A stretch of DNA of 64,000 nucleotides. Origin: Triglochin maritima. Taxonomy: Eukaryota; Streptophyta; Magnoliopsida; Alismatales; Juncaginaceae. Location: contig OY821772.1 of NCBI GenBank assembly GCA_963682175.1, positions 46,646,925 to 46,710,924 of the forward strand, given 5' to 3'. Each line of letters opens with the position of its first letter. Within the stretch, counting starts at the first letter, position 1. A program made the position numbers and the translations under genes. Below are positions 3,346-45,620 of the stretch, piece by piece. The notes below the pieces were generated by a model. The model had not been told where the DNA came from, ran no database searches, and saw only the letters and a program-made list of their open reading frames with translations.

Positions 3346-6150
3346 AATATTAGTTTCCATTATTTTTGAAAGTTACTTGGTGTACAGTAATATCAAATGC
3401 ATAATTTAAATAACCCAAATATAAAAAAATGCAAACACCTCCCACGGGACTCACACCACACCACCAACCTTATGGAGTTATTATTTTTATTCCAATAAAC
3501 AAAACATGTCTCTCATCGACGACGTTCCCATTCCCAAACTCCAAAGCAATGCAATTACCAATTAGCAAAGTTTCAGTTTGAATCCAAAAAAAATTTAAAA
3601 TTAACAACCAACAGAACCTCATCTGCTCCACCGCACACCTGTTTTCCTCAATCCACCATCTTCAATTACTACTCCTCTTCCCTTTTCCATCTTCAATGGC
3701 GCAGCCGCGGTTGGGATCCTTCCGCAACAGCCTGGCGCAGAGGAGCAAGCATCGCCTCTTCTCCCACTCCCACATCGACAGAGACTGGGACACCGCGCGG
3801 GCCCCACTCCTCCCCTCCTTCCTCCACGACGACGAAGACGCCGGAAACTTCTTCCAGAAGGCCCGCCTCTGGGTTTCCAAGGTCCGGGAGAGGGCGCTCG
3901 AGATTGCCGCGAAGATCTGGGGCTTCGCCCGGTCGGATCCGAGGAAGGTCATTTTATCGGCGAAGATGGGGTTGGCGCTCATGCTGCTCTCCTTTCTTAT
4001 TTTCCTCAAGGAGCCCTTCGACGCCATTAGTAGTCACTGCGTTTGGGCCATCATTACCGTCGTTGTCGTCTTCGAGTTCAGCATTGGTGACGACTCAACT
4101 AAGATTTTTGTGTCTTTTTGTTTTGACTTTTGAGGGAACTCGAAGATTATGTATTGAATTTATCTGAAAAAAGAAACAAAAGTTGGAGGGAGTCATGTGT
4201 TGGTGAATTGGAATTCGCAATCACGTTTCATTTGGTTATGTTCAGAATGAGGATTGGACCATGCCTTTTAGATAAATAAATAAATAAATAAGTTTTGGTG
4301 AAAAAAGAAAATTATCATTTAATTTCTTACAGAGTAAATTCAAAGGAGTCAAAAGTTTCAAAACATCTTTGTTGTTGAACAACGGAATTCTGGTTCTACA
4401 TGATATTGGTGAAATTTAGTCCCCATTTTGATGTTGTATGTTTCTTCTGGGTTAACTAACTTTGTTTACCATTAACTTACTTTTGCAGGTGCTACCCTAA
4501 GCAAAGGGTTTAATAGGGGTTTGGGAACATTGTTAGCTGGAGGACTAGCTCTTGGGATACCTGAACTGGCTGTATTGGCTGGTGGTTGGGAAGAGTTCGT
4601 CATTATCCTCAGTATCTATCTTGCAGGTTGAGACTCAGCTCATCATTCACATTTATTTCTTCATTTGAAGAGCTTTTCTGATGAAGCAATCTGCTTTGTC
4701 TTCTTTTCTTGCAGGCTTTTTGTCCAGCTTTCTTAAGCTCTATCCGACAATGAAGCCTTACGAATATGGGTTTCGTGTCTTCTTGATAATGATTACCTTT
4801 TGTTTCATAGTAGTATCGAGATTTAGGACAGGTGCTTTCACTCAGACAGCAGTTACTCGTTTTTTTCTCATCTGCGTTGGTGCTTCTGTTGCTTTGGCTG
4901 TGAACATATTCATTTATCCAATATGGGCTGGGGAAGATTTGCACAATTTGGTTGCAAAAAACTTCACCAACGTGGCACAGTCTCTTGAAGGTCCGTTTTC
5001 TTTTGTATTGCTTAAGGTGTACTGGTATATGCTTGAAATTGTTATTTTGCATATTTACTTTGTTACATGATTTTATCTACTTGCTTTATAGCATTCTTCT
5101 ACATCTAACATGAAACACTAGTGGACGAGGTTTCTTATTAGATACTTAATGTAATGTTAAAAAACCTGAACTCCGACCTCTGGATATGTCATTTCCATGG
5201 GTCAATTCCATGAATTTGAGGCCAAAAGAAGCCTTGTGGAGAAAGCAATAAGCTTGCTTTCGTCCAAAGTCATCACTCCAAATTCTTATGTTGTGATTAC
5301 ATGAAAGCCTACACCTTTGCCTTTTTGTCTTTCCATGTCTATTTATTCTCTTTTGCATCTCACTTATGAAGTATTTAAAAAATTACTATTATTGCATCTT
5401 TAATTTCTTCCACCAAATGGTTTAATCTTTTACATCATCTTTTACAAAATGAGATGTCATAATTTGTGAAACAATTGATGGTAGATTGTATGGGTGTAAT
5501 CGATCTCTAAACGAACGAGCCGAGCATGCTCGAGATTAGTTCGATAAGTTAAAAGTTTCGAGCGGAAAATCGTACTCGGCTCAACCCACGAGCGGCTCGT
5601 TAACTGAACCTGTTTTCCCCCTTCCAATAACCTGCTTATTGGTATTAAATCAATGATAAAGCCGTCCTAACAAGTAACAAATAACAATCTAATTTTCCAA
5701 ACAATCCACTTGCTTAACAACCTTTAAAACACCACGAACATATCACTACTACATCATAAATAAGATCATCCACTTTCTTAACACAATCTTAAAATCAAAC
5801 AAAATATGGAAAATACACAAAGTCCACAACATAATTCGAACATGCTTAACATCTGCATTGCTGACAATGCATCTAAAACCTTTGATCATAGCTTAGTCCT
5901 CCAATGCGTCGAAGGTCTCTTTCTTGACGTACGAAACAACACAAATTAGTAAAACGACATTTTATTTGTTGAGAACAAAATTAAACAACCTACAACACAA
6001 TAATCAGGAAATTATTATTAAACTTGAGAAAAAATCTTACATTCAAATTGTCGTAATCATGCTACCATCCGGGAATTTCACAATTTTGTCTTCTTCAACC
6101 AAATAATCATGCTGAAAAAAAGAATACATGACCTTAATAATATTATTTAA

Positions 6151-10831: not shown

Positions 10832-11255
10832 TGACAGCTTACTGCCACGTTAGCTCACCCAACTCACCCAAAAAACCCCTTAACCACGCTTAGGCTACCC
10901 CCACCCACTCTACTCTCTCTCCTCCACGTCATTTCTTAATTAAATAATTTTAATTCTTCCACAACATTCAACAAATTACATTTTATAAAATTCTAATTCT
11001 AATTACTATATTTAATTACTTTAACTCGAAAATATTTAATAATTACTATTAAATCACGAAATTATTATTAAATATTAGAAACTCACGTTACATATTAGAT
11101 AAACTGAAATCGAAAATATTACATTCAAAGTTAAGAAACAATAGTACATATTACATAAACTGGACTTCGAAATAGTACATTAAAATTTTTGTTAAACCAT
11201 TTTCAAATTGTTCCTCGTCCGTAATGTTGTCATATATGCTCGATTAAATCGCATT

Positions 11256-12460
11256 TCAGATCCAAATGTTGATTCCTGTCACGCACCTTATCTTGATTGA
11301 CAAAAACTCGTGAATATCCGTTATACGATCGGTCGAATATTGCATTAATTCCTCCTCAGAAGTTCCAGGTCGATCTTCCATAAATTCACGAATATCTCCA
11401 AAATTAGCGTAACAGTCGTGTTTGTCCTCCACTATCATGTTATGCATAATGATGCAAGTTGTTATTATTTTGGATAGTACGTCCTTACTCCAGGCAAGAG
11501 TTCGATTTCTGATGATCGCGAACATCGCTTGCAACACTCTGAAAGCACGTTCTACATCTTTACGCGTTCTCTCCTGGACTTCAGCAAACAACATGTGCTT
11601 TGGGGTTTGAGGGTGAATGATAGTTTTGGATGAAGGCGGCTCATTGTGGATAAATATCATTTGTAATATAGTATCTCATATCATATTGAACATCATTTAC
11701 CTCATAATTTACAGGTGGAGTTTAGCCTTCTAGTATGTCGTCGAAAACCGGAGATTGTTGCAGGTCGTTCAAGTCGTTGGCCGAACCAGGAATTCCGAAG
11801 AAGAAATGCCAGATCCATAAGTCGTACGATGCCACCGCTTCAAGGATCATGGTTGCTCTCCCAGTACGCCCTTGATGTTATCCCTTCCAAGAAGTCAGAC
11901 AGTTTTTTCACTCCCAGTGCATACAATCGATACTCCTCATCATACATGTGAACCCACGTTGCTCACCAACATAAAGTAGTCATGCCAAGTCATTTGCAGT
12001 TGGACGCCGTAAATACTTATCACCGAAGTTGTTAATAACACCTTCGCAGAATTTGAGGACATTTCTGGATGTTGCCACATTCATTCGTAGATACTAATCG
12101 ATCCCATCAGCTGTCACGCCATAGGCTAGCATCCGCATTGCTGCCGTAGTTTTTTGTAAGCTTGAAATGCTCAATCTACCAATTGCGTCCGGTGTTCGTT
12201 GGAAGAAGACATCAGATGCTTCAATGACATTGGAAATGCGCAGAAAGACATGCTTTCACATCCAAAATCTTCTCATGAAAAGAGTATCAGAATACACAGG
12301 GTTGTCAGAAAAATAATCGTCCATAAGACATCTGTAACCAAGTTCACGATCTCTATATGGGTTTGTTGTTCTCCTTCGACGCTGCTAGGGCGTATACTCC
12401 TTTCGTACACAACTCGAGCGACCATATCAACAACACGGTTCAACAGATTTTGAACTATTA
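11256..12460 (-). pseudogene. PIF/Harbinger transposase (element 1), broken
   Basis: The minus strand is alignable along its length with the intact transposase at 36795-38048. The best-preserved piece (11256-11660) holds EVQERTRKDVERAFRVLQ, matching the region of the third catalytic residue (the Glu in VERAF), and the tail CVTGINIWI. Further upstream the frame is lost by deletions and stops (for example the first Asp region is not readable in one frame). The DDE nuclease cannot be made from this copy. Confidence 0.85.
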
Positions 12461-12539
12461 AACGGCATTGAGAGAAGAAGTTAAGGAGATTTGAGGAGTT
12501 AGAGATAGATAAAAGTATTTATAGTTGGGAGTAGATAGA

Positions 12540-12745
12540 GGTATCCGTTGCACAGTACGCGTGTGACTACATTGTGCATGCGTGATTGAAGAGTACAAAC
12601 GTGATTACACAGTGCATGCGTAATATTAATAATTATTACGCGTGAATGTACAGTGTACGCGTGAATACGCAGTACCCGTATGAATGTACAATATACGCGT
12701 GAAAGCAAAGTAGTCCGCGTGAATGCGCAGTGTCCGATTGTCCAT
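12540..12745. promoter_or_regulatory. Divergent promoter of Harbinger element 1 with ACGCGTGAA repeats
   Basis: Between the two divergent genes lie about ten copies of an imperfect ~21-bp repeat with core ACGCGTGAATGTACAGTGT, in one orientation on the right half and inverted on the left half around about 12635. A TATA-like TATAAATAC lies on the minus strand (about 12515-12524) for the transposase, and TATATATACC (about 12748) on the plus strand for ORF1. The same repeat type precedes the transposase in element 2. Candidate binding sites for the element's own proteins; that role is inference. Confidence 0.7.
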
Positions 12746-14861: not shown

Positions 14862-17800
14862 TCAGAAGGCAAAATCCAAATCCATTTTATGTGGTCTAGC
14901 ACAATGGGAATGCATCCATCCAATCCTCTCCTCCACGTTATCATACACAATCAGTTGCCCCTGAAGTGAGATATCTGCGAAGTCAAATGTTGATACTTAA
15001 TTAGTGATAGTTCAAGGAACACGACGTGTTCAGAGAAGTAAAAGATTCTTCCTTTCCTTTTCTGATAACGACATATAGTCACTCATTTGTCAAATATCTG
15101 GGAGTTTCGTATTTCTTCTTTGTAAATAACATTATCTTGACCATTGCTCAAGAGAATATATACCTCCAAGAATACTAAATGATCCATCATGTACATCAGT
15201 GCCATTAAGAATCCCCAAGCAGACGTTGCCTTTATTCTGCATTATGCAAATAAAATTGGACTAAGATTATAGCAGACATTTTAGGCGTCAGTTGTTCTCG
15301 AAAGGAAAGAAAATGTATGATCAAAGTCTTAAACCACTGTTTTCATCCTCAAACTCAACTTCTGAATTGGTGATCAAAATTTGTAAAATATGATAAAAAG
15401 GAATATGCTCAGCTCCACTTGTTTTCATATTTCAGAAGATCTTACACTGATTATCAAGTAACCTTCTGGTTGAATGACCATCACTTTGGAAATGAATAGC
15501 CAAGCACTCCTGAAGTGGATCGTCAATGGCTTGAAAAACCTTCTTACATCTTCAATGGACCTGAAGGACCATAAGTCTACTCAAACATCTTAATCACACA
15601 ATGTTTATTTGAAGAAAACAGGGTTAACTAAATCAGTCTTCAAGGAAACATCACGAAGATTATAGACAGGTGTGAGTTCAGGGACCAGATCAGCGAGTTA
15701 GATTGCTGAAACTCTCATTATTAATTTTTACCTTATAGGTGTGGTAGCTCGCCAACATATGGGAAGGGTCTGATCTGAGATATCTTGAGCAAGGCCATTA
15801 ACAGCTTTTAGCTGTCAAGTTATTTCATTGATCAAACCTTCGACAATGAGAGACTGGAAGATCATGACTTCTAGAATAGGTTCTTACTGAAGTGATAAGG
15901 TCAGCATATGCTGCATTTGTAAAGTACGAATAGGAGCTGCCAGTGTCAAAAACAATGAGACCCCTGTTACTTCGCTTTCCAGTTAAACTAAGTTGTTCCG
16001 CTCCATATTTCAACTTATGCACCTCTGCTACATAGAAATTTCTGCAAAATGGATCATTTGGAATTTTATCTAAGTTAGATGGGAGAACATCTACAACTGA
16101 TGAAATTGCGTCAAACAGGAAACAATACGTAATAGATTTTCACATACATGGTAGCACAGCCACATCTAACTACATCATGTCTGCCTATCAGGCTATCAAT
16201 ATGTGAGTCAACATCCTAGCATGCTCTGGTAAATTCTTATACCTTAAATTCAAATAAATATATGCTTTTTACATGGTCTTCAACATGTAACATACGGATA
16301 TTGCAGAATTGCATCTTCACCTTAACATCCAACATGAAAACTATCCTTGGATAACAGGACAGGCGACAGCTAAGATTTTAAATAATGTTTCCTCGGATAA
16401 ATGGGGGAATTAGCTTTGCTGCAGCCATTTCCTAGTTTCATGACATCGCTTCCTATAAACGAGCTAATAAACTGGAACTCCATATGCAATCTACTAGGAA
16501 TGGGAGTAACTCAGTGAGACGCAAACAGTAGGAAAGAAACAATAAATTAGTTCACAGTGTTGTAAAATTAAAGGGAACAACAGAATTGCAATAGAAGTCC
16601 AAAGATCATAAAATTACACAAAGCAAAAGACATGATCATTATAACCAATTCTTCCCCGTTAGGAATTTACCTACCAGTAACTGCTGTTAAGAGGATCTAA
16701 CAGTTTATTTATAATCTGTTATAAGGTACACTAATTATTTGATGGACTGAACCGAAGCACACTTACAGTGGAGATCTGACCATGGGAATCCAAGTCATAC
16801 CCCATTGAGGTACAAATTCATCACCCAAGAAAATGTATCCGCTGTTACCCTGATTTTTTGCAATGCAATGGCCAGCCACATTTGTGATGATTCCTTGACT
16901 TGCTAGTTGAGAAGGAAGGCCAACCTTAGCACCACTTAGCCCAAGTATGCCATCGGTCTGGGCAGGAGAGGCTAAAAGTTGTCCCTGCTGATCATAAGCA
17001 CACCTGCAATTGCATGAAAAACGGCAGATGTATCACAAGGCATACGAGAGCAATTGTTTCCGAGGTCACGAGATCATACCCGAAAACAAAAGTTGGATTT
17101 GCTATATCATTGTTCACCATGTCAAGTGACAAGTCATCTTTGACAAGAACGCCCATGGATGAGCTATGATCTGCATATTCAATCTCATAGTCGCATTGTG
17201 TGCAAATATCGCATAATTTTGAGTTTTGATTACTTTGCACTTCTATACAAAGTGAATCCCTTGATGGCACAATCTTACTTTTAGAAGGCTTGTATAAGGG
17301 ATTTGGCCCCTACATGAAACAATTTATGTTACAAAAGTTAATTTTTGATATTGTTATAATCAAGAAGATCGTATTATGGAGAATGCTTAAGAGAAGCAAA
17401 TCAAATTTGACATCAATGGAAAATGAAAATATACTTATCTTAAATGGACATGCAAGCTTGTTAATTAAGGGCTACCTACGACAAGGATTTTATTATCTAT
17501 AGTGCAAATGGTTGGACAGGGAAAGACCAGAGAGAAAAAATTGCATTTTAAGTTAAGATTATGTTACAACATTTTCCAACAGCATGCATCTCTTATAATA
17601 ATTGGGCTGCCAAAGCCTTAAAGCACTTGAAGTACCTTTGCACAACTAGCACAGGGAGCATCACACTGAATCCACGTTAAATCGCTGCCAGTGTCAATGT
17701 CAAGATAATAATTTCTTGGAGGGTTCCCAACACGAATAATGGTGTAATACATCCTACAATAAGTTCCAACTCTTAATACTAGAGACACACGCCACAAATT

Positions 17801-20800
17801 ACAAAGAAAAAGTATTCAGTAGCATTCATAATAAACCAAGTGAGAAACAAAAAAATGACTACGCCACAAATTACAAAGAAAAAGTATTCAGTAGCATTCA
17901 TAAAAAACCAAGTGAGAAACAAAAAAAAGACTAAAACCCAACGAGGAAAATTAAAAAACAGTCGTAACTAAATGGATTCTCAATGAGTCAGTGGACATGA
18001 ATGTGGACAAAAATAAGTTTTCCAAATTTTCTGGCAGCAACTTAGGTTGCAAATACGACAGAGGTTAGTGAAGGGAATGTGTTCTAAAAGTTTACTTTTA
18101 CATGTTAGTTATTATGAATTTGATGTACAAACATTTTATTCCTTGATTAATGTATTCGTCTTTTGAAGATGTTAAGGAAGAAGTTCTTCGTTCTTAACCG
18201 TAGATTTCTAAAAGATAATATTTTACATAAATCAAAAGTTATTCACAATTATGGTAATTGGCAATGAACATGAATTACCGAGATAAGATTGTCGTGTTGG
18301 TTAAAGAGTATTATGCCTCAATAAATATTTAACACGAGTATATAAAAGAGGAAAATTGTTACTTTTATATATTGAATACACCTAACAAATAAACATTATA
18401 AAATTGTGTTTAGTGTCATTAATGTTTCATTGTGTCTTGAATTCTAAGATATAAAACTTATTTTTTCACATAATAAGTGTTCAATTTGATTATTATCAAA
18501 AACTATCATTAAGAATAATGATAAGGACAATAATCGATTAAACATAACTTATGTTGGAAAAGATAGTTCGTCAAAGGATTATCATTACCCTTTTTGTTTG
18601 AGTAATGATATTAGTGGACACATTGATAAAGTGAAATTATAATGTGTACAATGTGACTTGTGTTAAGTTACATATTTATAATTAGCTTAAAAGATCAAGA
18701 AATGAATATATAATACAAAGGTGACACATTTCTACTTTGTATAATACTCTTAATATCATGAGACAAGGGATAAACACAAGTGATATTCTTATATCACTAA
18801 ATAGATCGTGTTTAGTTCGAGTAAACAAGACAACTTTGTTAATTGGGTAACTAAAATGTGTAGCTGAATACCACTCATAGTTTGTGATATTAAGTGTTTA
18901 ATATCATTGTCAATGTAACTTCGATCCTCCTATAAGTCACATCACAAAACTAAGAAACAATAAGTTTGATTTTATATTCATATGATGTATCTAGTTTCAT
19001 GTGAAATAGTATACATGTGATGAATTAATAAAATCAATATGTCGTGTAACTAACATAGTTAAAATCATAAATAAATTCATATCAGATGTATGTATATATG
19101 AGGTGTGATGTTTTAACATTACATATGATAATATATTAAATGATATGCAAAATTTAGGTAATGCCTAAGCGACCTGGCATGCACAGTCGCCCAAATGTGG
19201 AAGACTTTTTTTATTTTAAAAATTAAGGATAAATACAAAAAAAGATAAAACAAATTATTAAAAAAAACTTCCAGCACTTTCACCCCACGTGTCCAACACT
19301 TTCACCCTTAAAAAAACTTAACAAAAAATGTAAAAAAAAAAATCACACGCTTCTAGCACTTTCCAGCACATTCACCTTTCATTTCCACATCCCAGATCTC
19401 TCCTTCCACGATGATGGGCAAACCCCCTCCGCAACCCAAACCCTAAATCTTCCTTCCTTGACCCCCCATCCTACGTCGACGTCGTCTTCAAGCCTGAGAA
19501 CGACGCCTCAACCGCCTAGATCTACTCCTCCATCTCCTTCTCCGACCCCCAGAAGGATCAGGCGATCGCCTGATCGCCTAGGCGACCACCAGCAGGGGTG
19601 ATCACCTATTCGCCTAGACGACTGCTCAGCTGAACATTGATGATATGTGAATTTGCTAAAAACCCCAAAGATCAAATTTTGTTGGATGTTAATCCAAAAT
19701 TTGATAAAGTCAAAATCGGGTCAAAACGATTGGAAATTTTCGGAGACGGGTCAACCGGAAATTCACGGTAGTTGTTGCGTATGTGAACAGTCGACCGGAT
19801 GGATTCGTTGTTGGCTTTTTGGCTCATGATTAATCAACATATAACTTAAACACATGTAATTCGTTCATATCATTCTTGCACAATACACATATATCGTTTT
19901 GTACCTAAAATGTTAGTACAAAACGATATATGTGTATTGTGCAAGAATGATATGAACGAATTACATGTGTTTAAGTTATATGTTGATTAATCATCAAAAC
20001 GGATAAGCAATAATTAGCCAAAAAGGCAACAATCTCCCCCTTTTTGATGATGACAACTTATCAAATTAAATACATGTTATTTCAATGAATTCTACTCAAT
20101 GCTCCCCCTATCTTATAGCTCCCCCTAGCTATATGGCATTTGTAAACCCAATAGACATGTATGAGTAGTATTACTCTCCCCCTTTGGCATAATCAAAAAG
20201 CTGAAAAAAAATATCCAACAACTAAAACACATCCATTTGCCAAAACAAACAATGAAGGAGAAACAAAACATGCATTAAGTAATGAAAGGTTCAAAATACA
20301 TCAAACGCAAACGATACACCACACAACCAAAGCGGAAAACATATCATACAAGACACACGACCAACCAACATTAAACCATTAAAAACAACGTCAACCAACT
20401 CAATGTCCAAAGCGATCACGAAACATAAATGTGAGAGAGTCAATGCCATGAAGCACCGAGTCGAACTTAGCGTCAAGACGCTCAAGGTGCTGAGATGTCG
20501 AAGCTTCAAAACGATCAAGTCGTTGAGAAGTGGAAACTTCAAACGCATCAAATCGATCCGACAACTGCTGAAAGGAATGATCCAGAGTGTAGTCAGTATA
20601 AGCGGATCTCCGCTGACTCTCATGCCAAGCAGATTCGTCGCCTTCTCCCCAAGAAAAGTGACCCTCCTGCTGAGATGGCTGGGGCATCCAACGAGGATCG
20701 GCCGGCACATCATCTTCATTTTCTTGCTCAGAATCTCCCTCAGAGGACGGTTGAAGAGAAGATAAGGCAATGGTTTTCATTTTTGATAGAGTGGTCTTAC

Positions 20801-23800
20801 AGATTGGATATTTGTATGTGGCCGATGGACAATCGGTAACACGAATTTTAAGAAAGTCAAAGAGAACGGTAAGCAACATGGGATAAGGGAGATACCTCCC
20901 TTTCTTAAAGCGCATATGGAGGAATATGAATAAAGGTCAATTAATCGGAATTTTCTTGTAGATGCAATAGATACACAAGCTCCGTATAAGAGATTTCGTT
21001 ATGATGACCATGTTTAGGAAGCAAATTGAAGGATACGATATATGCCAAGACTCGAGCGAAAGGATGCATCAAGGAGGAGTTGTGAATAATAAAATCATTT
21101 TTGGAAGGAGGTGGAAAGACATATAATTCAGCAACCATATCATCATGAGTGATGTTTTCAAGTACACTAAGAGGATGCTCAACATATAAATGAACACCCG
21201 AGAACTCTAAGCCAAAAACTTCAGCAAGAGTTCCGGGGATAATTTCATATCTATATCCATTAATCATGGTACGAACAATGTGGTGAGTTGGTTCAAAATG
21301 AAGATTACAATAGAATTGTTGAACCAAAAAAAAGATAATAAAGTTTTGAAACTAGATTTGTGAGACAATGTGTAAGACCATTAGCATCTAAGCAAGATTT
21401 AAGAGAGTAGTCATGAAAGTCCGTTACCTCAACTGCGTGATTCGGAATGAAAGGAGCCGCCGAGAGCTTTTTCTCCCAATCGCTTTTGGCGAACTCGTCA
21501 ATAGGGTGGAAAGCAAGAGTTGGAGGCGCAGGCGGATGACGGACATTGGGGGTAGTAGAGGAGCGATTGTGGGCCTTTTTGGTGCGTTTTTCGGTGGAAG
21601 TAGTGGGATCAACCAAGCGTTTCTTGCGGATAGTCATTTTCTTCCCGGTCATGGTGAAGGAGGAGAAAAAAACTTTGGGAAAAAATGTGTGCAAAATGAA
21701 GAGGAGATGATGAGAAGCGATAAAATGCAAAAAAATTGAGTTTTACCGCAGGAAATATGCGAAATCGAGGGATGAACGTGATGGGGAAGGCTTAGGGTTT
21801 GAGAGAGATTGTTTAGGGTAAAATCGGAACGTAATGGCCTTACACATTGTCTCACAAATCTTAGCTTCAAAACCTTATTATCTTTTTTTTGGTTCAACAA
21901 TTCTATTGTAATCTTCGTTTTGAACCAACTCACCACATTGTTCGTACCATGATTAATGGATATGGATATGAAATTGTCCCCGGAACTCTTGCTGAAGTTT
22001 TTGGCTTAGAGTTCTCGGGTGTTCATTTATATGTTGAGCATCCTCTTAGTGTACTTGAAAACATCACTCATAATGATATGGTTGCTGAATTATATGCCTT
22101 TCCACCTCCTTCCAAAAATGATTTTATTATTCACAACTCCTCCTTGATACATCCTTTCGCTCGAGTCTTGGCATATATCGTATCCTTGAATTTGCTTCCT
22201 AAACATGGTCATCATAACGAAATCTCTTATACGGAGCTTGTGTATCTATTGCATCTACAAGAAAATTCCGATTAATTGACATTTATTCATATTCCTCCAT
22301 ATGCGCTTTAAGAAAGGGAGGTATCTCCCTTATCCCATGTTGCTCACCGTTCTCTTTGACTTTCTTAAAATTCGTGTTACCGATTGTTCATCGGCCACAT
22401 ACAAATATCCAATCTGTAAGACCACTCTATCAAAAATGAAAACCATTGCCTTATCTTCTCTTCAACCGTCCTCTGAGGGAGATTCTGAGCAAGAAAATGA
22501 AGATGATGTGCCGGCCGATCCTCGTTGGATGCCCCAGCCATCTCAGCAGGAGGGTCAATTTTCTTGGGGAGAAGGCGACGAATCTGCTTGGCATGAAAGT
22601 CAGTGGAGATCCGCTTATACTGACTACACTCTGGATCATTCCTTTCAACAGTTGTCGGATCGATTTGATGCGTTTGAAGTTTCCACTTCTCAACGACTTG
22701 ATCGTTTTGAAGCTTCGACATCTCAGCACCTTGAGCGTCTTGACGCTAAGTTCGACTCGGTGCTTCATGACATTGACTCTCTCACATTTATGTTTCGTGA
22801 TCGCTTTGGACATTGAGTTGGTTGACGTTGTTTTTAATGGTTTAATGTTGGTTGGTCGTGTGTCTTGTATGATATGTTTTCCGCTTTGGTTGTGTGGTGT
22901 ATCGTTTGCGTTTGATGTATTTTGAACCTTTCATTACTTAATGCATGTTTTGTTTCTCCTTCATTGTTTGTTTTGGCAAATGGATGTGTTTTAGTTGTTG
23001 GATATTTTTTTCAGCTTTTTGATTATGCCAAAGGGGGAGAGTAATACTACTCATACATGTCTATTGGGTTTACAAATGCCATATAGCTAGGGGGAGCTAT
23101 AAGATAGGGGGAGCATTGAGTAGAATTCATTGAAATAACATGTATTTAATTTGATAAGTTGTCATCATCAAAAAGGGGGAGATTGTTGCCTTTTTGGCTA
23201 ATTATTGCTTATCCGTTTTGATGATTAATCAACATATAACTTAAACACATGTAATTCGTTCATATCATTCTTGCACAATACACATATATCGTTTTGTACT
23301 AACATTTCAGGTGACAAGTTTAACGAGAAATGAAGTTGAAGAGTAGATAGGTTTACATTATTGTCATTAGGATTTAAATGTAACTTGAGCACTTAAATCT
23401 TGATGCATTGCATATCATGACTCTTTAGGATTCCATAGAAGTAGAATTAAACCTTCAAATTCCATACAAAACTTCTTTAGAAATCAATCAAACCATATCC
23501 AGGATTTCTGCACTCAACCGGTCGACCGGTCGACCATCTGGTTCGACCGTTTAATCTAAAAACTGTTTTCTGAACCTTTTCGGTCGACCGAACTGTGTTC
23601 TGGTTCGACCGTTTCATTAGAGTAACTTAAGGTATTTTGGTCGACCGATCAACTGTTCATACGTGCTGGAAGACACGTGCCTTAGTGCAAACCGGTCGAC
23701 CGAAAGTCCTTTTCTGTTCGACCGTTTGATTTCTATTTTTGTCTTCTTTTGTGACCGTTATACTTGTCGTATTATACAACGGTCGTATACACATACTTTC

Positions 23801-26608
23801 ACCTACCCTCAAATGCATAGCTTACCGGTTGAACAATTCGTATTTACCGGTCGACCGTTTGACCATTGATCTTTCGTATCATGTTTCCTGTTATCGGTCG
23901 ATACCACCTTGGTTCGACCGAACACACTTTGTCTCTACCGAACTTTACACATCGGTCGACCGTTTCCTAGTTTCGTTTGACCGGTGTACTTAAGTTCCAT
24001 CGCAGTAAGTTCGACCGTTCCTAGTTTGTCTGACCGTTTGACTACTATTCACGTAACCGGTCGACCATTTCATTCTTACCGGTCGACCGAACATTGACAG
24101 AATTGTTTCCCGAATTTCTGGAGAAAACTTAATAGGCTTATATATAGAGCTTAGATCATCTTTACAAGGTTACAAATCCGATCTCTAAGCTCTCATTGTG
24201 TTAAAACCTTCCAAGTGCTCTTACTCTCTTTATTGCTCTCAACCACTCTCTTGATCAATCATTCAATTGCATTCATCATCAATTCAAGTGCTCAAGAGTA
24301 AGTTACACAAAGTCTACTACAAAGGAGTTGTACAAGCTTCCGGAGTGAAGCTCTTCTCGGGTTGTGAGAAGGATGTCCAAGCTTGGCGAGGGTTCGCAAG
24401 CTTGAATTGTAAATGCTCGATCTTTGCCCGGAAAGAAGATCAAATTAATGAAGATCGCGAAGTTGCTCAAGAAAGAGCAATTCGTAAGAGAGGACTAGGA
24501 TCCGGTGCTTGGATCCAAACCTCTATACATCCGGTGTTTGGTTTGCCTTTTCATCTCACTATTTTCATTGGTTATTTTGTTATTGCACAAATAGTTAGTA
24601 GTGAGAAATTAGTCTATAAACCCCCCCCCCCCCCCCTTAAGACTAATATTTAGGGAAATTAGATCCTACATGCGTTTGGTCGACCAAAAACTTCCATAAG
24701 CTTCCGCGAACTCTTCTTGGTAGTGATTGGTTGAAGGTCGTGGTTCGATCGAAAATTTTCATGAACTTTTCTTGGTCATAATTGGTCAACCGACTTGAAG
24801 TGCAGTCCGACCGAAAAATCACAGTAGCTTTGGTAACACATGATTGGTCGACCGTCCGGTTTCATGGTTCAACTGAAACTGCAAGTAACTGTCAATCGGT
24901 CGACCAGTTGGCAAGTTTCGGTTGACCGGTGAGCACGATTCTGCTGGAATTAATTAAGAGATTGATGTTGATCATGAGTTATTCCAATTGTGGTCAAACG
25001 TATATAAGGATGATTATGTGTCAATTTGTAATTGATTTTAGGGAGAGAAAATCAAAAAATCATTGGTAAGTAGATTACTCATGATGTGGGTGTTGGGAGA
25101 GTCCATAAATAAGTTTCATCTCCCTATTTGTTTTAATTAATGCAAAAATTCTCTCTCTCAAACCTTCTCACTAATCCATCCGAAAATCTGTTGGTTAATT
25201 AAGCTTTTGGTGATTAAATTCTCAGGAAGCTTTAAAAGGGTTATTAGTTAGATTCTTGATTTAGAGATTGATTAACTAGCTCATTTCTCTTTAATTTTGT
25301 TTAGAATTTGGTGAATACTTTGAAGCGAATCGGTGGACGATTTTACGGGCAACACAACTTCGGATCTTCATAAAGATTTTAGAGAACATTTGGGTATAAT
25401 TCTCTATTATTTATTTTAATATACATGTAGATTACATTGTATTAAAATAAAACATATGATAATGTACATGAAATCTTCGAAAATTGTATTAAAATAAAAC
25501 ATATGATAATGTACATGAAATCTTCGAAAACATGGAAATTTATCTTGTATGCATATATAAAATTTTAAAAATATATACGTAAATAGGGACACGAAATCCT
25601 ACAATTAGTTTTACTATGATTGGAAATTTTGATTGTTGAAGATGCAATATTATAAAATCATCACCCTGATTCACGCTCTTAGAAACTGAAAGAGATCAAG
25701 GTACATGAAGGAACTCCATCAGATACACACCACACGTTCACAACTGGAAAATGTTGTATTATTCTTTAAATTATGTGTTTCTTCTTGACAGACCCAAAAA
25801 AATTCAGATCAGTTGAAGTGAGAGGAGCAATTGAGACAATACCAACATCAAAATCAAACCCTGTTGCATCCAAAAAACAAGCATAAGTTCAGTAATTATA
25901 TTTTACACCAAAAGAACCAATGAAAGATTTTTTTTCTTCTTCTTTCCTCACACTAATTACTTCCTCCGATCGCTCTCTAGTTGCATGTAGATTTCAATTG
26001 CTACACTAATATTAGCAATACCACAACACATCCCCTAGCCAACTATCCCACTCACTAACTAACATTCCATATCAAGAAGCAAATACATACCCGTTGGGGA
26101 AAACGTTCCCGTTGACGGCGAAGGCGACGGACTCATTTCTCTTTCCAAACGAATCCACAACCTTCCTTCGCCTCCTCACCGCCGAAGCCAACCCGATGTG
26201 GGCCTTCCCGAGCTTGACCTCGGCCGCGGCAATCCTCTTCTGGTGAAGGGGGAAAAGTATCGACCTAACCTCCCTCCTCTCCTCCCCATCCTCTCCAGTC
26301 TCAACCCCGAGGAACTGGAACCCGCCCCGGTAGGACGCCCAGGACCGGAGCAGGAAGACGACGGCGGCGGCGGAGAGGAGGGAGATGAGGGTCTTCCGGA
26401 GGGTGAGGGAGAGGGATCTGGGAGTTGGAGTGGGAGGAGAGGGAGGAAGAGGAGGTGGGGTTGGGGTTGGGGTTGGGTTGGATGGGAGTTGGAGTGGGAC
26501 GGAGAAGGCGGTGATGGTCTTGGTTTGGGTGGGGGAGTCGGGTGGGGGGAGGGTTATGATCACGATGCCTTTCACCGGCGACGGTGGTGGTTCGCCGGAG
26601 TCGGCCAT
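14862..26608 (-). CDS. APCB1: APCB1-like aspartyl protease, nine exons, intact
   Basis: Pepsin-family (A1) protease closest to Arabidopsis APCB1, a membrane-anchored enzyme that processes the co-chaperone BAG6 in autophagy and immunity. Exons on the minus strand: 26091-26608, 17636-17753, 17080-17309, 16767-17003, 15888-16041, 15732-15811, 15446-15560, 15164-15236, 14862-14974. All junctions are GT/AG and all phases agree, giving 545 residues without a stop. Residues about 72-90 form a membrane anchor after a Pro-rich cytosolic tail. First active-site motif DTGS at D193 (exon 2); second DTGSS at D400 (exon 5). Cys-rich stretch CDICTQCDYEIEYADHS in exon 3; carboxy end ...GWMHSHCARPH. Intron 1 (17754-26090, 8.3 kb) is loaded with nested transposons; exon 1 is easily missed because of this. 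A MULE lies about 100 bp upstream of the ATG. The usual family length is about 580 residues. Confidence 0.93.
17789..17932. repeat. 72-bp tandem duplication in APCB1 intron 1
   Basis: The segment starting ACGCCACAAATTACAAAG at 17789 is repeated immediately at 17861 with a few differences. It is close to the exon 2 acceptor (17753), on the upstream side. Confidence 0.9.
19148..19639. mobile_element. Small hAT-type element, 8-bp TSD, gene-like insert
   Basis: The 8-mer ATGATATG flanks it on both sides (19140-19147 and 19640-19647). Ends CAAAATTTAGG and, in reverse complement, CAATGTTCAGC are short imperfect TIRs. CGCCTAGGCGA-type palindromes occupy the right end. The interior (about 19400-19560) is GC-rich and reads as an exon-like frame (FLDPPSYVDVVFKPENDAST, then a stop) unlike its AT-rich surroundings, suggesting captured host sequence. 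Inserted in LTR family B. Confidence 0.8.
19826..19994. repeat. 79-bp perfect or near-perfect palindrome, 11-bp spacer
   Basis: Two LTR tips meet head to head: 19826-19904 is the reverse complement of 19916-19994, separated by CTAAAATGTTA. A transcript in either direction would form a 79-bp stem with an 11-nt loop. Confidence 0.92.
20020..20185 (-). promoter_or_regulatory. Inverted copy of the polypurine zone
   Basis: Mirror of 23030-23183: CTCCCCCTTTTT at about 20034, GCTCCCCCTATC and GCTCCCCCTAGC near 20101-20125, and CTCTCCCCCTTTGG near 20173. It shows that the inverted arm includes the normal sequence next to a 3' LTR. Confidence 0.8.
20400..21652 (-). pseudogene. Env-like retroelement ORF, left arm (full length, two frame breaks)
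   Basis: Minus-strand start at 21652 (MTGKKMTIRKKRLVDP), a basic amino terminus, then a region resembling the plant transposon-protein domain PF20167 (WEKKLSAAPF ... QQFYCNLHFEP ... EVFGLEF). The frame changes at a poly-T run near 21310 and again near 20930; the last 171 codons end at 20400. The carboxy end contains repeated heptad-like units (LSDRFDAFEVSTSQRLDRFE and following), a likely coiled coil, after an acidic linker. Located between the polypurine zone and the missing pol, the place of the Sirevirus env-like gene. Function of these proteins is not established. Confidence 0.7.
21832..22816 (+). pseudogene. Env-like retroelement ORF, right arm (amino terminus missing)
   Basis: Forward copy of the same gene. 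It starts within the sequence corresponding to the junction after residue ~115 of the left copy, so the basic amino terminus is absent. The two reading blocks 21889-22275 and 22301-22816 contain the FYCNL/EVFGLEF core and the coiled-coil tail. It shares the frame break near 22280 with the left copy, so that break predates the inverted duplication. Confidence 0.7.
23030..23183 (+). promoter_or_regulatory. Multiple polypurine tracts before the 3' LTR
   Basis: Four GGGGGAG tracts: AAAGGGGGAGAG (about 23030), AGGGGGAGC (about 23090), AGGGGGAGC (about 23106) and AAAAAGGGGGAGAT directly before the LTR start at 23184. Repeated polypurine tracts at this place are described for Sireviruses; the last one would prime plus-strand DNA synthesis. 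Confidence 0.8.
23184..24670 (+). repeat. 3' LTR of the Sirevirus-like element, 1487 bp
   Basis: Starts TGTTGCCTTTTTGGC, ends AGATCCTACA. CGGTCGACCG palindromes cluster at 23515-24100. A run of 17 or so C bases followed by TTAAG lies at about 24620-24640 near the LTR end. The 5' counterpart is reduced to 96 bp at 19809-19904. Confidence 0.8.
25436..25529. repeat. 47-bp exact tandem duplication
   Basis: The unit beginning ATTGTATTAAAATAAAAC occurs at 25436-25482 and again at 25483-25529 within the 3' part of LTR-B. Confidence 0.95.
25610..26090. other. Proximal part of APCB1 intron 1
   Basis: Between the LTR-B end and the APCB1 exon 1 donor. AT-rich, no repeat or coding signal seen; probably original intron sequence. 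Confidence 0.5.
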
Positions 26609-36570: not shown

Positions 36571-36728
36571 TTAATCACGAGTGCAATATTTAATCACGGG
36601 TGCACTATTTTCAATCACGCGTGCACTGTTTGCAATCACGCGTGCACTATTTGCAATCACGCGTACACTATGTGCAATCACGCGTGAACAGTGCAACAAA
36701 TACATCCAAACCCTCCCAACTATAAATA
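36571..36728 (+). promoter_or_regulatory. Transposase promoter: six CACGCGTGCACT repeats and TATA box
   Basis: Six imperfect units of about 21 bp (CAATCACGCGTGCACTATTTG type) run from 36571 to about 36697, followed by TATAAATACA at 36721 and the transposase ATG at 36795. The core CACGCGTG is itself palindromic. Confidence 0.8.
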
Positions 36729-36794
36729 CATCTATTTATCTCCTGATTCCTCACATTTCCTTAACTTCTCAACTCGTAGCTTCTTCTCTCATCA

Positions 36795-38048
36795 ATGTCG
36801 GATAATAGTTTAAACTCCGGTCAATCGGACGATGATAACTGGAATGAGACATTAAATCTAATGGACCGTGCTATTGAATTAGCCGGACAGGCTGTTTACG
36901 AAAGGACTACACGTCCTAAGCAGTGTCGAAGGAGAACGACGAACCCAGATAGAGATCGTGAACTAGGTTACAGACGCCTTGTAGACGATTATTTCTCTGA
37001 CAACCCTGTGTATTCTGATACTCTTTTCAGGACAAGATTTCGGATGAGAAAGCATGTCTTCCTGCGCATCCACAATGCCATCGAAGCATCTGATGTCTTC
37101 TTCCAACGAACACCGGACGCAACTGGTAGGATGAGCATCTCCGGTCTACAAAAAAGTACGGCAGCAATGCGAATGCTAGCATATGGCGTTGCCGCTGATG
37201 GGATCGATGAGTACCTACGAATGAGTGCGGCAACATCCAGAAATGCTCTCCTCAAATTCTGTGAAGGTGTTATTCGCATCTTCGGCCCTGAGTATTTACG
37301 TCGGCCAACTGCAAATGACTTGGCACGCCTACTTTACGTTGGTGAGCAACGTGGGTTTCCAGGTATGATGGGGAGTATCGATTGTATGCACTGGGAGTGG
37401 AAAAACTGCCCAGCTGCTTGGAAGGGACAACATCAAGGACGTGCTGGGAAAGCAACTCTGATCCTTGAGGCGGTGACATCGTACGACTTATGGATCTGGC
37501 ACTCCTTCTTCGGAATACCGGGTTCATGCAATGACTTGAACGTCCTGCAACAATCTCCGGTTTTCGACGACATACTAGAAGGTCGAGCACCACCTGTTAA
37601 TTATGAGGTAAATGGTGTTCAATATGATATGGGATACTATCTTACTGATGGTATTTATCCACAGTGGGCGGCCTTCATCCAATCCATCCTTCACCCTCAC
37701 ACCCCGAAGCACAGATTGTTTGCTGAAGTGCAGGAGGCAACGCGTAAAGATGTTGAACGCGCTTTCGGAGTGTTGCAAGCGAGGTTCGCGATCATCAGAA
37801 ACCCGGCTCTTGCCTGGAGCAAGGACGTTCTGTCCAAAATAATGACAGCTTGTATCATCATGCATAACATGATAGTGGAGGACGAACGCGACTGCTATGC
37901 TAATTTTGGAGATATTCGCGAATTTATGGAAGATCGTCCTGGAACTTCAGCTGAGGCAACGTCGTATTCGACCGATCGTATAGCGGATATTCACGAGTTT
38001 TTGTCAATCAAGATCGAGTGCGTGACAGGAACCAACATTTGGATCTGA
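36795..38048 (+). CDS. PIF/Harbinger transposase (DDE nuclease), apparently intact
   Basis: A 417-residue single-exon frame with the length and motifs of plant PIF/Harbinger transposases (HARBI1-like DDE_4 nuclease). Catalytic residues visible: D196 in GSIDCMHW, D285 in YYLTDGIYP and E321 in DVERAFGVLQARF, with 35 residues between the second and third. The amino terminus is acidic and Asn/Ser-rich, followed by RRLVDDYFSDNPVYSD, the typical start of the plant domain, and an HTH-like segment (about 80-160). Starts 67 bp after a TATA box and ends close to the 3' TIR. No stop or frameshift. It would cut and paste its own and related elements, probably only with an ORF1 protein, which this copy lacks. 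It shares obvious identity with the broken copy at 11256-12460. Confidence 0.93.
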   Translation: MSDNSLNSGQSDDDNWNETLNLMDRAIELAGQAVYERTTRPKQCRRRTTNPDRDRELGYRRLVDDYFSDNPVYSDTLFRTRFRMRKHVFLRIHNAIEASDVFFQRTPDATGRMSISGLQKSTAAMRMLAYGVAADGIDEYLRMSAATSRNALLKFCEGVIRIFGPEYLRRPTANDLARLLYVGEQRGFPGMMGSIDCMHWEWKNCPAAWKGQHQGRAGKATLILEAVTSYDLWIWHSFFGIPGSCNDLNVLQQSPVFDDILEGRAPPVNYEVNGVQYDMGYYLTDGIYPQWAAFIQSILHPHTPKHRLFAEVQEATRKDVERAFGVLQARFAIIRNPALAWSKDVLSKIMTACIIMHNMIVEDERDCYANFGDIREFMEDRPGTSAEATSYSTDRIADIHEFLSIKIECVTGTNIWI

Positions 38049-38541
38049 AAGGCGATTTAATTGAGCATATATGGCAACGCTACGGACGATGAGCGGTTTG
38101 AAAATCGGTTAACGTAGTTTGTCATGTAGTATTTAAAAGTTTAGTTTATGTAATATGTACTGTTGTTTCTTAACTTTGATTGTAATATTTCCTATTTCAG
38201 TTTGTCTTAAATGTAACGTGGCTCCGTAATATTTAATAATAATTTCGTGATTTACCAGTAATTATTAACAATATTTCGAGTTAAAATATAATTATAATGT
38301 AATTAAAATTATATTTATATAAAATGTAATTTGTTAAATGTTGTGTGAGAATTAAATTTATTTAATTAAAAAATGATGTGGATGAAAGAGAGTGTAGGGT
38401 GGGTGGGGGTAGCCTGGGCATGGATAAGGGTTTTTTTTGGGTGAGTTGGGTGAGCTGACGTGGCAGAGAGAGAAGCTGACGTGGCAGAGAGAGAGTGCAG
38501 GGCGCCCGGGGGTAGCCCGGGCGCTGTTAAATATGCTCTTA

Positions 38542-39518: not shown

Positions 39519-39744
39519 TGTAGAATTTGGCACAGGAGAGCATGAACAGAGATTTGTATATTGATTTGTTTTCTATATTTCTTATATTACGAGGGTATAT
39601 ATATACTCTATTGATTACATAGCCATTGTGATGTTTGAATGGCGTGATTTCTTTCCTTAGATGTGTGACGAGAATGGAAGTTGTCATAACCGGATATCTG
39701 ATTGTGTTGTGATGGGGTTGAGCCTAACGGTCGTATTTTCAACA
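39519..39744 (-). repeat. Copia LTR 1 (outer 3' LTR)
   Basis: Minus-strand start TGTTGAAAATACGACC at 39744, end at 39519. It is the most diverged of the three LTRs: several indels and substitutions relative to the inner two. Confidence 0.9.
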
Positions 39745-40258
39745 TGCCCCTCAAGTTGGGTTCGGAATAAGTTGATAGATCCCAACTTGTGAAGTAGATT
39801 TGAAAAATACTTATGGTTGAGGGCTTTGGTGAATATGTTGGCCAACTGCTCTCTGCTGGCAACATATGAGACTTCAATTTGTTTGGATTGGATTTTTTCC
39901 CGAATGAAGTGACAATCAACTTCTATGTGTTTGGTTCGTTCATGGAAAACCGGATTTGTTGCGATGTGTCGAGCTGCATTGTTATCACAAAACATCTTCA
40001 TTGGTTCCTGAGTCTTGATGTGCATGTTTGTGAGTAATTGGTTTAGCCAATCAACTCACTGGTGGTGGAAGCCATAGCGTGGTATTCTGCTTCTCCAGTA
40101 GATCGGGCAACAACGTTTTGCTTCTTGTTTCTCCAAGTGACTAGATTGCCTCCTACAAATGTGCAAAAACGTATTGTAGATTTCCTGTCGTGGCTTCCTG
40201 CCCAATCTGCATCAGAGTAACCAATTATAGAATTAGAATTATTGGGTTTCATCCACAA
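39745..40258 (-). pseudogene. Copia RNase H, unit 1
   Basis: Minus strand: SDADWAGSHDRKST, then GGNLVTWRNKKQNVVARSTG and EAEYHAMA, followed after a frame change by ARHIATNPVFHERTKHIEVD and FTKALNHKYF. This is the Copia RNase H domain and the end of pol. The frame break near 40030 makes it inactive. Confidence 0.9.
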
Positions 40259-40453
40259 TCATTGTCCTGGGGTTCCTTTAAGATAGTATAGTATTCTATT
40301 TATGATGTCTAGGTGATGAGTATGAGGTGAATGCATAAACTGACTAACTATACTTACAGCATAAGCAATATCGGGTCGAATGATAGTGAGAGATAATTTT
40401 TCCAACAAGTCTTTGAGATAGATAACCTATTTTTCCAGTTTCTCTAAGAAGGT

Positions 40454-41400
40454 CTATAACATACTTCCTTCGGGAGAGAAATATACCTTTTTTGAGTATG
40501 CAATCTCTATCCCTAGGAAGTATTTCATAAAGCCTAAATTTTTAATGTCAAATTTATTTTTTAAGTTCTTTACTAGATCTATTTCGTGATCACTGTCTTC
40601 GGTTATTATGATGTCATCTACATAAATGAGAACAATGGTGGTGATGTTATGATTGTGTCTAGTGAACATGGATGCATCAACATAACTTTTTTTGAAACCA
40701 TACAAAAAGAGGGAGTGACTAAGTTTCATACAAGGCCCGTGGTGATTGCTTCAGTCCATATATATACTTATGAAGCTTGCATACCTGATGGGGAGTCGTG
40801 GTGTAACATGGGTGTGGAGTCATATAGACTTCTTCTTCAAGATTTCCCTGTAAGAATGCATTTTTACGTCCATTTGAAAGAGATTTCAACATAGGTTTAC
40901 AACAATAGATAAGAGAACACGAACAATGTTTATTTTGGCTACTGGAGCAAAAGTTTCTAGGTAGTCGAGACCATAAGTTTGTGTATACCATTTAGCTACA
41001 AGACGAGTCTTATATCTTTCAATTTGGCCATTACTATGGTATTTGATTTTGTAGATCCATTTGCAACCTACGTGTTTTATGCCAGGTTGTAATTGGACCA
41101 GAGTCCATGTTTTGTTGGTTTCTAATGCTTTAAGTTCATCTTTCATGGCTTTGGCCCACTTTGGATCTTCTATTGCTTCATGATATGAAATTGGTTCTTT
41201 ATTGTTATCTAGTTGAATTAGGAAGGCTCAATGTTTATGTGAGAGTTGGTTGTAGGACAAGTGGTTCTGAATATGGTAAGTAACTTGAGAAACAAAACAT
41301 TGGTCGGTGGTGGTTCTTCTTCTTCTCCCCCTTTGTTGCCCACTGGTGGATCATCGACTTGAGGATGGATAATGGTCGGAGCATCTGGAGCCGGGTCTAG
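40454..41400 (-). pseudogene. Copia reverse transcriptase, unit 1, broken
   Basis: Minus strand blocks: [44 protein letters not shown] (41146-40886), [13 protein letters not shown] and GLKQSPRAL (40991-40719), IVLIYVDDIIIT (the YVDD catalytic motif) and FLGIEIAYSK (40729-40454). Frame changes between blocks disable it. Upstream of 41400 the remainder of pol is missing. Confidence 0.9.
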
Positions 41401-41403
41401 AAG

Positions 41404-42790
41404 GTGTAGGATTTCGTGTCCCTATGTATGTATATATTTTAAAAAAATTAATACAACATACAAGATCGATTTCATATTTTCATTGATTTTACGTACATGT
41501 ACTTGTTTATTCTAATATCATGCATTCCTATACATATTAAAATAAACAAAGAATATATGATCATAACCAAAGGTTCTCTAAAACCTCTCAGAAGATCTGG
41601 AGTTCCGTTGCTCGTCTAATCGCCTGCCGATTCGCCTCTCAGTGTTCACCAAACTCTAAACAAGATTAGAGAAAAAGGAGCTAGTCAATCAATCTCTAAT
41701 TAGGCTTAGAATCTAGCTAATAACCCATCTTTAAGCTCCTGAGATTTCTATCTCCAAAACTTAAAACTATTAAGAGATTTTCGTTGTGATTAAGGGAGAG
41801 ATTAATGAGAGAGAAAAATTGCATTGTAATAAACAAGTAGGATGATGGGTCCTTTTATAGACTCCCAAAACATCATTATCAAGAGCTATTCTTTAGTCAT
41901 GATCTCTTGTTTATTCTCTCCTAAAATTAATCTTAAATTGCCACATAAGCACCCATAAAAACGTTTGATTAAATCTGGAATTAATTTAACCCATGATCTA
42001 ATTATTCTCTTAATAATTCAGACAAAAATCGCGTTGTTCGGTTAACTGAGAATTCTTCTCGTACAACCGAATCATTCAGTTTTAACACATGTTCGGTGAA
42101 CTGTGAGCTAGACGGACGACCGAATATGCATGAGAAAAATTCTCTGGAAAAATTCAGACGATTCGCGTCTTGCTCCGGTCGACCGTTGACCCACCAAAAT
42201 TTCTCCTGGCGAACATCCATCGGACGACCGTGTCACCTTCGGTCTACCGAAAATATTCTTTCTCGGTTGACCGTGCACGCTCGGTTAACCGAACCCAATT
42301 GTCCAGGCACTCCAGACAATTTCGGTCAACCAATTGTGTTTACCCGTTCCCCGTTCGGTTGACCGTTTCAAAGATACCTCGGTCGACCGAACCCTAAACG
42401 GCTCACCGTGTTTGACCCTGATTTTGCCTTTGTCAAATTTTGGATTTATTTCCAACAAAATTTGATGTTTTAGGGTTTTTAGCAAATTCATATCTTATGT
42501 AATATATTATCCAATGTAATATTAAATTATTACACCCCATAATATATACACCTCGTATGAATTTATTATGATTCTAATTATGTCAATTCTCATGCCATAT
42601 TGATTTTATTCATTCACCACATGTGCCCATTTTTCACATGAAACCCGATACATCACATGAATTCAAAATCAAGCTTCTTGTTTTCTATTTTTGTGGTGTA
42701 ACGTATAGGAGGATCTAAGACAAATTGACAGCGATATTAAACATTTAATATCTCAAACTATAAGCGGTATCTAGCTACGTATTATAGTTA
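41404..42790 (-). mobile_element. LTR-B piece nested in Copia unit 1
   Basis: Starts TGTAGGATTTCGTGTCCC at 41404, the inverse of the LTR-B end at 25603, and follows that LTR through the palindrome zone (42040-42420) and the ATGAATTTGCTAAAAACCC region to sequence matching 18840. It is truncated at about 42790. It replaces the protease-integrase segment of the Copia element. Confidence 0.8.
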
Positions 42791-43599: not shown

Positions 43600-43730
43600 G
43601 TTTTGGAGATTTTTGGGTATGTATGTTGATTTTCTCGACCTTCAACCCCCTTGGATGAGGTGAGACCGATGAGGATCCCAAAGGGGGAGTCTGAGGTCGT
43701 GTTTTTCTTCGGATCAATGTTCTGATACCA

Positions 43731-44475: not shown

Positions 44476-44670
44476 TCATTGTCCTGGGGTTCCTTTAAGA
44501 TAGTATAGTATTCTATTTATGATGTCTAGGTGATGAGTATGAGGTGAATGCATAAACTGACTAACTATACTTACAGCATAAGCAATATCGGGTCGAATGA
44601 TAGTGAGAGATAATTTTTCCAACAAGTCTTTGAGATAGATAACCTATTTTTCCAGTTTCTCTAAGAAGGT

Positions 44671-45617: not shown

Positions 45618-45620
45618 AAG

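Follow-up and report, generated by a model that had tools for sequence, protein, structure and literature searches.

Two independent palindromic Sirevirus insertions in the Triglochin maritima genome, one of them within a predicted APCB1 intron

Introduction

How can one retrotransposon insertion come to hold two facing copies of its own 3′ half, and what might follow from its position in the intron of a host gene? These questions are raised by a Sirevirus-derived element in a stretch of 64,000 nucleotides (nt) of the plant Triglochin maritima (GenBank assembly GCA_963682175.1, contig OY821772.1, here numbered C4, positions 46,646,925 to 46,710,924), which we call the window; the whole genome comprises 1.06 Gb. 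The element occupies window positions 19809–24670 (4862 bp) and carries, within one insertion, an inverted and a forward copy of its 3′ half in front of a single complete long terminal repeat (LTR). A preliminary description of the locus had placed it in the first intron of a gene for an APCB1-type aspartyl protease and had suggested that it might serve as a natural source of small interfering RNAs (siRNAs). We consider it fairly probable that the element is a defective Sirevirus copy that arose by aberrant reverse transcription, was inserted by integrase and is inert today.

Results and discussion

One insertion with two facing arms

From left to right, a forward LTR tip of 96 nt is followed by an inverted arm, a spacer, a forward arm and the whole 3′ LTR, an anatomy that was read from the assembled sequence alone. 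The tip (19809–19904, plus strand) begins with TGTTG, the exact 5′ terminus of the LTR, and thus represents the start of its unique 3′ region (U3); it differs from the 3′ LTR by a 20-nt deletion and one substitution. The inverted or left arm (19903–21383, minus strand) contains the start of U3 in antisense, the polypurine tracts (PPTs) and the 3′ part of the third open reading frame (ORF3), with its terminal PPT at 20034–20041. The spacer (21384–21811, minus strand) holds the inverted 5′ part of ORF3 and its leader, which have no counterpart in the right arm. By our reading against normal copies, the turn-point is a 20-nt forward piece of the ORF3 leader (21812–21831, plus strand), from which the sequence jumps by about 430 nt into the forward or right arm. 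This arm (21832–23312, plus strand) comprises the 3′ part of ORF3, four PPT octamers and the first 129 nt of U3; the latter are at the same time the beginning of the full-length 3′ LTR (23184–24670, plus strand, 1487 bp). ORF3 is split over two frames in both arms.

The two arms of 1481 bp face each other across 448 bp; 19 substitutions among 1480 aligned bases and two single-base indels separate them, and the arm-to-arm distance is 1.33%. When the 64-kb window is compared with itself (matches ≥200 bp), they form the only inverted pair above 90% identity, the next reaching at most 82%, and the pair is therefore far beyond chance. The element is flanked by near-matching target-site duplications, TTCGT on the left (19804–19808) and TGCGT on the right (24671–24675), which agree in 4/5 positions. 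The preliminary description is thus borne out with regard to the limits of the element, its near-identical inverted repeat of about 1.48 kb and the loss of gag-pol and of the body of the 5′ LTR in favour of an inverted 3′ half.

A second palindrome of separate origin

A genome search with the third ORF gave 298 candidates, the best 40 of which lie at 38 loci. All 38 were examined with their flanks: besides the window element, these were the locus L009 (C8:47900850), taken with 8 kb, and 36 others with 7 kb each. Two of them, the window element and L009, are palindromic, and the other 36 contain the family in one orientation only. In L009, a 44-nt forward U3 tip precedes an inverted arm that begins shortly before the PPT; a centre of complicated structure leads on to the forward arm, which is followed by a full 3′ LTR. 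The insertion is enclosed by a perfect 5-bp target duplication (AAAAT/AAAAT). Its arms are 1.06% apart (11/1305 columns, those past the junction being dropped); three differences beyond the left junction were excluded, which leaves 9 and not 12 differences in the outer part of the arms. In the centre (L009 positions 3399–3660) the turn is present twice with a 172-bp forward ORF3 piece in between, which points to more than two strand switches.

Each palindrome's arm pair is at least 3.05% away from any other sampled copy, and the two palindromes hence arose independently. They share one plan (a U3 tip, then an inverted and a forward copy of the 3′ half, and finally the full 3′ LTR) but no junction.

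Two simple explanations of the window element deserve mention. As inverted repeats are prone to misassembly, a false inverted join might have created the palindrome; however, the arms differ at 19 sites, the spacer is unmirrored, near-matching target repeats flank the element and another locus follows the same plan, so that we regard an assembly artefact as extremely improbable. Nested insertions are common in plants, and two elements of opposite orientation might likewise have inserted near or into each other, with the rest deleted later. An antisense nested insertion of the retroelement EVD has indeed been described (PMC11624286). Such an event is very improbable here: the element has one full LTR, one short tip and a single pair of target repeats, and 11 private changes relative to the 36 normal copies are common to both arms, from which it follows that the arms come from one molecule or were homogenised. 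A second, internal pair of target repeats or LTR ends was not noticed in general sequence comparisons, which did not include a dedicated search.

Further palindromes were sought by reading lists of the best matches for neighbouring sites on opposite strands. Neither a second subfamily (best 40 of 706 candidates) nor a third one (best 41 of 690 candidates, at 40 loci) contained an opposite-orientation pair within 10 kb. In another set, largely overlapping the ORF3 set (best 40 of 680 candidates), the window element was the only such pair; L009 appeared there with one arm, which shows the weakness of this approach. The genome has 3169 exact PPT/attachment sites. Among 100 of these there was no minus-then-plus pair within 10 kb and there were two plus-then-minus pairs (8.3 and 5.5 kb apart), an order unlike that of the window. 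Scans for the junctions themselves require exact anchors, so that diverged palindromes may escape them. The L009-type pattern returned L009 and one false match, C10:19252826 (L046), which was rejected as an ordinary PPT-repeat variant without a palindrome. In the window-type left junction the gap is 202; a pattern allowing 141–201 excludes the window itself, a range including it found the window only, and gaps of 21–81 and 81–141 gave nothing.

Sirevirus identity of the family

Polypurine octamers, an AT/TG attachment site, repeated motif (RM) boxes, a TATA box and a polyC signal are given as marks of Sireviruses (PMC2829016). The octamer AGGGGGAG occurs four times on the plus strand of the window element (23032, 23089, 23106 and 23174) and four times mirrored on the minus strand. 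The terminal copy at 23174–23181 adjoins the AT/TG attachment site, the combined sequence being AGGGGGAGATTG at 23174 with its mirror image beginning at 20030. The 3′ LTR contains six exact copies of the CGG-CCG palindromic motif CGGTCGACCG, the RM-box unit reported for a Vitis element (PMC2829016), as well as a TATA-like site at 24139 and a polyC stretch at 24621–24636. The 9-mer CGGTCGACC is present in eight copies, compared with a mean of 0.004 in 500 mononucleotide shuffles.

An inverted repeat around the boundary of PPT and 3′ LTR has been described as conserved in Sireviruses (Bousios et al. 2010, PMC2829016); by reading, it is also present in the right unit of the window element. Exact octamer and attachment site are kept in 20/36 family copies, and in 15 of these 20 both cores of the inverted repeat are exact as well. 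A normal relative, L019, encodes a copia-type reverse transcriptase (RVT_2, E 1.3e-72), whereas pol is absent from the internally deleted window element. The assignment to the Sireviruses in the preliminary description agrees with all these features. The open third ORF of L019 matches Transposase_32 (PF20167, E 7.9e-17); the term envelope-like, used for this ORF in the preliminary description and in PMC2829016, serves here as a label. In another relative, L014, the integrase region is fused in frame to the third ORF (3824–5287, minus strand), an internal deletion leaving one long open frame.

Junctions and a proposed copying reaction

The left ends of the two palindromes are instructive for their origin. 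Both are exact LTR termini, with only 96 nt (window) and 44 nt (L009) of U3 behind them, and neither palindrome was found through this end: the window element was noticed by its arms, L009 by ORF3 matches on both strands. At the left junction of L009, the conserved inverted repeat around the PPT contributes its U3 copy, which is joined to the mirrored upstream copy. Its turn lies at CGATCG, which was seen in four normal copies (seven were tried, three of them without an anchor match). The turn of the window element, again by our reading, adjoins GGGTAAAA...TTTTACCC of the normal-copy leader, followed by the jump of about 430 nt.

The anatomy of both elements, their junctions and their target duplications could be established directly, and from them we infer the following course of events. 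Synthesis of minus-strand complementary DNA (cDNA) would first copy the 3′ LTR and the PPT region and then enter ORF3. Near the ORF3 start, a short inverted repeat or palindrome would allow the 3′ end of the cDNA to switch to a minus strand, either its own or that of a co-packaged copy, and copying would then return towards the PPT. Around the PPT and the start of U3, a second switch would lead onto plus-strand strong-stop DNA, with run-off at U3 nucleotide 1; in L009 the site of this switch would be the conserved PPT inverted repeat, and in the window element it would lie about 129 nt into U3. The product would have a U3 end on the left and an end of the unique 5′ region (U5) on the right. 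Because of these ends the palindromic cDNA would be competent for integration and could be inserted with a 5-bp duplication, in the present case into intron 1 of the APCB1-type gene. Gene conversion would have partly evened the arms afterwards.

The principal alternative is that a normal insertion was turned into a palindrome later, in the chromosome, by fold-back or by a replication template switch at short inverted repeats, with gag-pol and the greater part of the 5′ LTR being lost. In yeast, single-stranded hairpins have been reported to give rise to fold-back inversions (PMC7467729), and both turns lie at or near short inverted repeats. Yet two independent events would each have to break the 5′ LTR no more than 96 nt from its start and rejoin the ends near the PPT/U3 boundary. 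A chromosomal fold-back would not favour that place, whereas a cDNA that needs the plus-strand start for its integration would favour left ends at the LTR terminus; the exact termini at both loci therefore argue for two strand switches during reverse transcription. We consider the chromosomal route possible but unlikely, also in view of the age of the arms.

Age and probable homogenisation of the arms

In L009, unique and shared mutations are unevenly distributed along the arms. The inner part (950 columns) contains two unique arm differences and 17 shared private changes, the outer part (355 columns) nine and one, respectively. This segregation, observed directly in the alignment, is significant (Fisher p 5e-5; 0/2000 label shuffles with a scanned breakpoint), and normal copies show no regional difference in private changes (9.6 versus 8.3 per kb). 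It indicates arm-to-arm gene conversion, with copying from two different RNA templates as an alternative. As a consequence, the divergence of whole arms was rejected as a measure of age: with shared and unique mutations segregating in this way, an older split of the arms would be hidden by conversion, and the same segregation argues against a recent chromosomal formation of the palindrome. The nine differing sites in the outer 355 bp amount to 2.5%, or about 1.27% per arm. Terminal branches of 25/36 normal copies measure 1–2%, with seven shorter and four longer. Since the outer arms fall into this range, the L009 palindrome and its insertion are probably of about equal age, and the similar age of the outer arms and of ordinary insertions speaks against a later fold-back.

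The arms of the window element are identical from 22770 to 23308, and nine of their 19 differences are changes in the inverted arm, ten in the forward arm. While gene conversion is clear in L009, for the window arms it is possible but not proven.

Several observations weigh against an origin by reverse transcription as proposed above. The switch onto strong-stop DNA is deduced from the end points only, and no intermediate has been seen. The left junction of the window element is a two-base overlap 129 nt into U3, with no inverted repeat, and its target duplication is imperfect (TTCGT/TGCGT). Between the left tip of L009 and the 3′ LTR of the same element, 3/44 sites differ, a higher proportion than between the arms; the model therefore has to assume either a second RNA template or a 5′ LTR that aged separately, and an old 5′ LTR is what the chromosomal alternative would provide. 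Both arm pairs sit on long shared branches, which would also fit a palindrome formed some time after insertion. The longest identical run is marginal in the window arms (1350 aligned columns, p 0.025; for L009 p 0.08), and the comparison of inner and outer parts is not significant for the window (p 0.14). Finally, palindromic products are rare, with 2/38 loci and none added by three further samples of best-scored copies. An origin by two strand switches during reverse transcription nevertheless appears to us the probable one.

The host gene and the predicted fold of its intron RNA

On the minus strand, nine predicted exons, all of them with GT-AG borders, join to an uninterrupted frame of 545 amino acids. 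The gene assignment rests on this nine-exon model, which we preferred over single ORFs. Exon 1 is predicted at 26091–26608 and exons 2–9 at 14862–17753; exons 2, 3 and 4 match the Pfam domain TAXi_N and exon 2 also Asp, and no Pfam match was obtained for the reading frames of exons 1 and 5. In a protein homologue search, 7991 candidates were scored, of which 737 reached E ≤0.001 and the best 120 were examined. Among these, the six best are 54–56% identical to the predicted protein; the first four are from monocots (Dioscorea with 56% and 55%, then Phoenix and Musa), Arabidopsis APCB1 follows with 50% identity, and many bear the name APCB1. The predicted intron 1 (17754–26090, 8337 nt, GT-AG) encloses the palindrome, in accordance with the earlier placement of the element, between fragments of an older repeat (18774–19147 on its left and 24947–25451 on its right) related to a tandem element at 42–47 kb of the window. 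The intron also contains a perfect 47-bp tandem duplication (25436–25529).

A fold prediction for the whole intron RNA gave 1472 arm-to-arm pairs, all in register, among 3122 pairs in total, so that the potential for a long hairpin in the pre-mRNA, as previously suggested, is retained at the level of prediction. The full LTR of the element reads rightwards, away from the arms, and read-through from APCB1 would hence be the only obvious transcription across the hairpin. Today, transcription of APCB1 would yield a 1.48-kb intronic RNA hairpin, with at most local small RNAs and methylation as its effect.

A stronger role was proposed in the preliminary description, namely that the hairpin in the APCB1 pre-mRNA is diced to 21–24-nt siRNAs that silence the Sirevirus family in trans. 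Such a role would be compatible with either origin of the palindrome and would be in line with the predicted stem and with its position in a host gene. However, introns are usually spliced and quickly degraded. Pooled over the 36 relatives, 69% of the right-arm 21-mers are found in at least one of them, but each single relative matches only 20–43% of the 21-mers of the hairpin stem, and the lowest match (20–22%) is that of L037, L038, L039 and L041, a subfamily whose terminal branches are the shortest (0.29–0.86%). A trans-acting role is therefore possible but not indicated, and we regard it as improbable. Moreover, these branches are shorter than the 1.27% per arm of the unconverted part of L009. 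Transposition in the wider family therefore probably continued during the lifetime of at least one such hairpin, although a short terminal branch does not date an insertion.

Methylated cytosine deaminates, and a trace of this kind may be present in the window arms, where 14/19 arm differences are C-to-T or G-to-A. Of the private changes, 19/26 belong to this class, compared with 195/444 among normal copies (36 copies; Fisher p 0.004). Neither the unique window-arm changes alone (10/15, p 0.11) nor L009 (15/25, p 0.15) show a significant excess, and single normal copies reach a fraction of 0.75. The excess in the window arms fits a stronger cytosine methylation of the intronic palindrome; a causal part of the hairpin is not implied, and as methylation has other causes, the trace lends limited weight to a silencing trigger.

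Taken further, one might imagine that the Sirevirus reverse transcriptase, prone to strand switching at the conserved PPT inverted repeat, occasionally makes integration-competent palindromic cDNA, and that copies landing in genes would be read from host promoters as hairpins, so that a transposition burst would incidentally supply the host with siRNAs directed at the family. We find this wider scenario rather improbable.

Other repeats in the window and the genome

A tandem retroelement-like array extends over 39519–48386 of the window, with 39519–44170 and 43731–48386 being 99.5% identical and a third copy of the end piece following at a spacing of about 4216; the repeat fragments on either side of the palindrome in intron 1 belong to the same repeat. 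A different repeat occurs in two inverted copies (10842–12624 and 36614–38466), which are 82% identical over about 1.86 kb and lie 24 kb apart. Elsewhere in the genome, PPT/attachment sites of the same orientation are equally spaced at C1:17553849-17560796 (3461 bp), C1:53948284-53958794 (3495 bp) and C3:2899315-2907024 (3842 bp), a pattern suggestive of Sirevirus units arrayed in tandem, and two family copies of the same orientation, C10:21990122 and C10:21993091, are 2969 bp apart and possibly form another tandem unit. Contig C1 is otherwise dotted with such sites, but in the approximately 25 Mb of C1:22829940-47989072 there is none among the 100 exact sites listed of 3169; this gap may correspond to a centromeric or differently composed stretch.

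Comparison with known systems

As a Ty1/copia element of the Sirevirus type (PMC2829016), the window insertion has the octamers, attachment site, RM boxes, PPT/LTR inverted repeat and third ORF; it differs in having neither gag-pol nor a full 5′ LTR and in containing the 3′ half twice, as a palindrome. The proposed copying reaction resembles strand displacement assimilation, a mechanism put forward for retroviral recombination during plus-strand synthesis (PMC3187697); the extension to inverted duplications is ours. Fold-back inversions (PMC7467729) likewise produce inverted duplications through single-stranded hairpins, but those are chromosomal rearrangements, whereas both cases described here end at an LTR terminus and have target repeats.

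Transposon hairpins have been ascribed to chromosomal rearrangement or to tandem or nested insertion (PMC3440606, PMC11624286). Among the open-licence papers listed in our searches, with subscription journals outside this scope, no title or abstract opening described LTR retrotransposons that had inserted as palindromes with target duplications. The two Sirevirus palindromes, independent of each other and with their integration ends intact, point to the copying reaction as another possible source of hairpins, and hairpins made in this way would bear on how a plant first recognises a new retrotransposon burst. In the antisense nested EVD arrangement (PMC11624286), too, an LTR retroelement in inverted self-arrangement is considered a silencing trigger; there, two separate insertions are involved, whereas here a single insertion already has both arms. 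For the question of whether a retroelement hairpin in an intron yields small RNAs, the APCB1 locus offers a defined site.

A further counterpart, already named in the preliminary description, is Mu killer of maize (PMC3440606), a transposon rearranged in such a way that its coding region is present as an inverted duplication beside a host transcription unit, and for which a long hairpin has been proposed. This structural part of the analogy holds, but the functional part is weaker than had been claimed: antisense transcripts from an internal promoter were reported in plants that silence, and read-through sense transcripts in plants that failed to do so (Skibbe et al., PMC3440606), so that the parallel to a hairpin read from a host promoter needs care. 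Furthermore, Mu killer derives from a DNA transposon and its silencing activity has been demonstrated genetically, whereas the palindrome in the APCB1 intron is a retroelement known from its sequence, which probably owes its two arms to reverse transcription.

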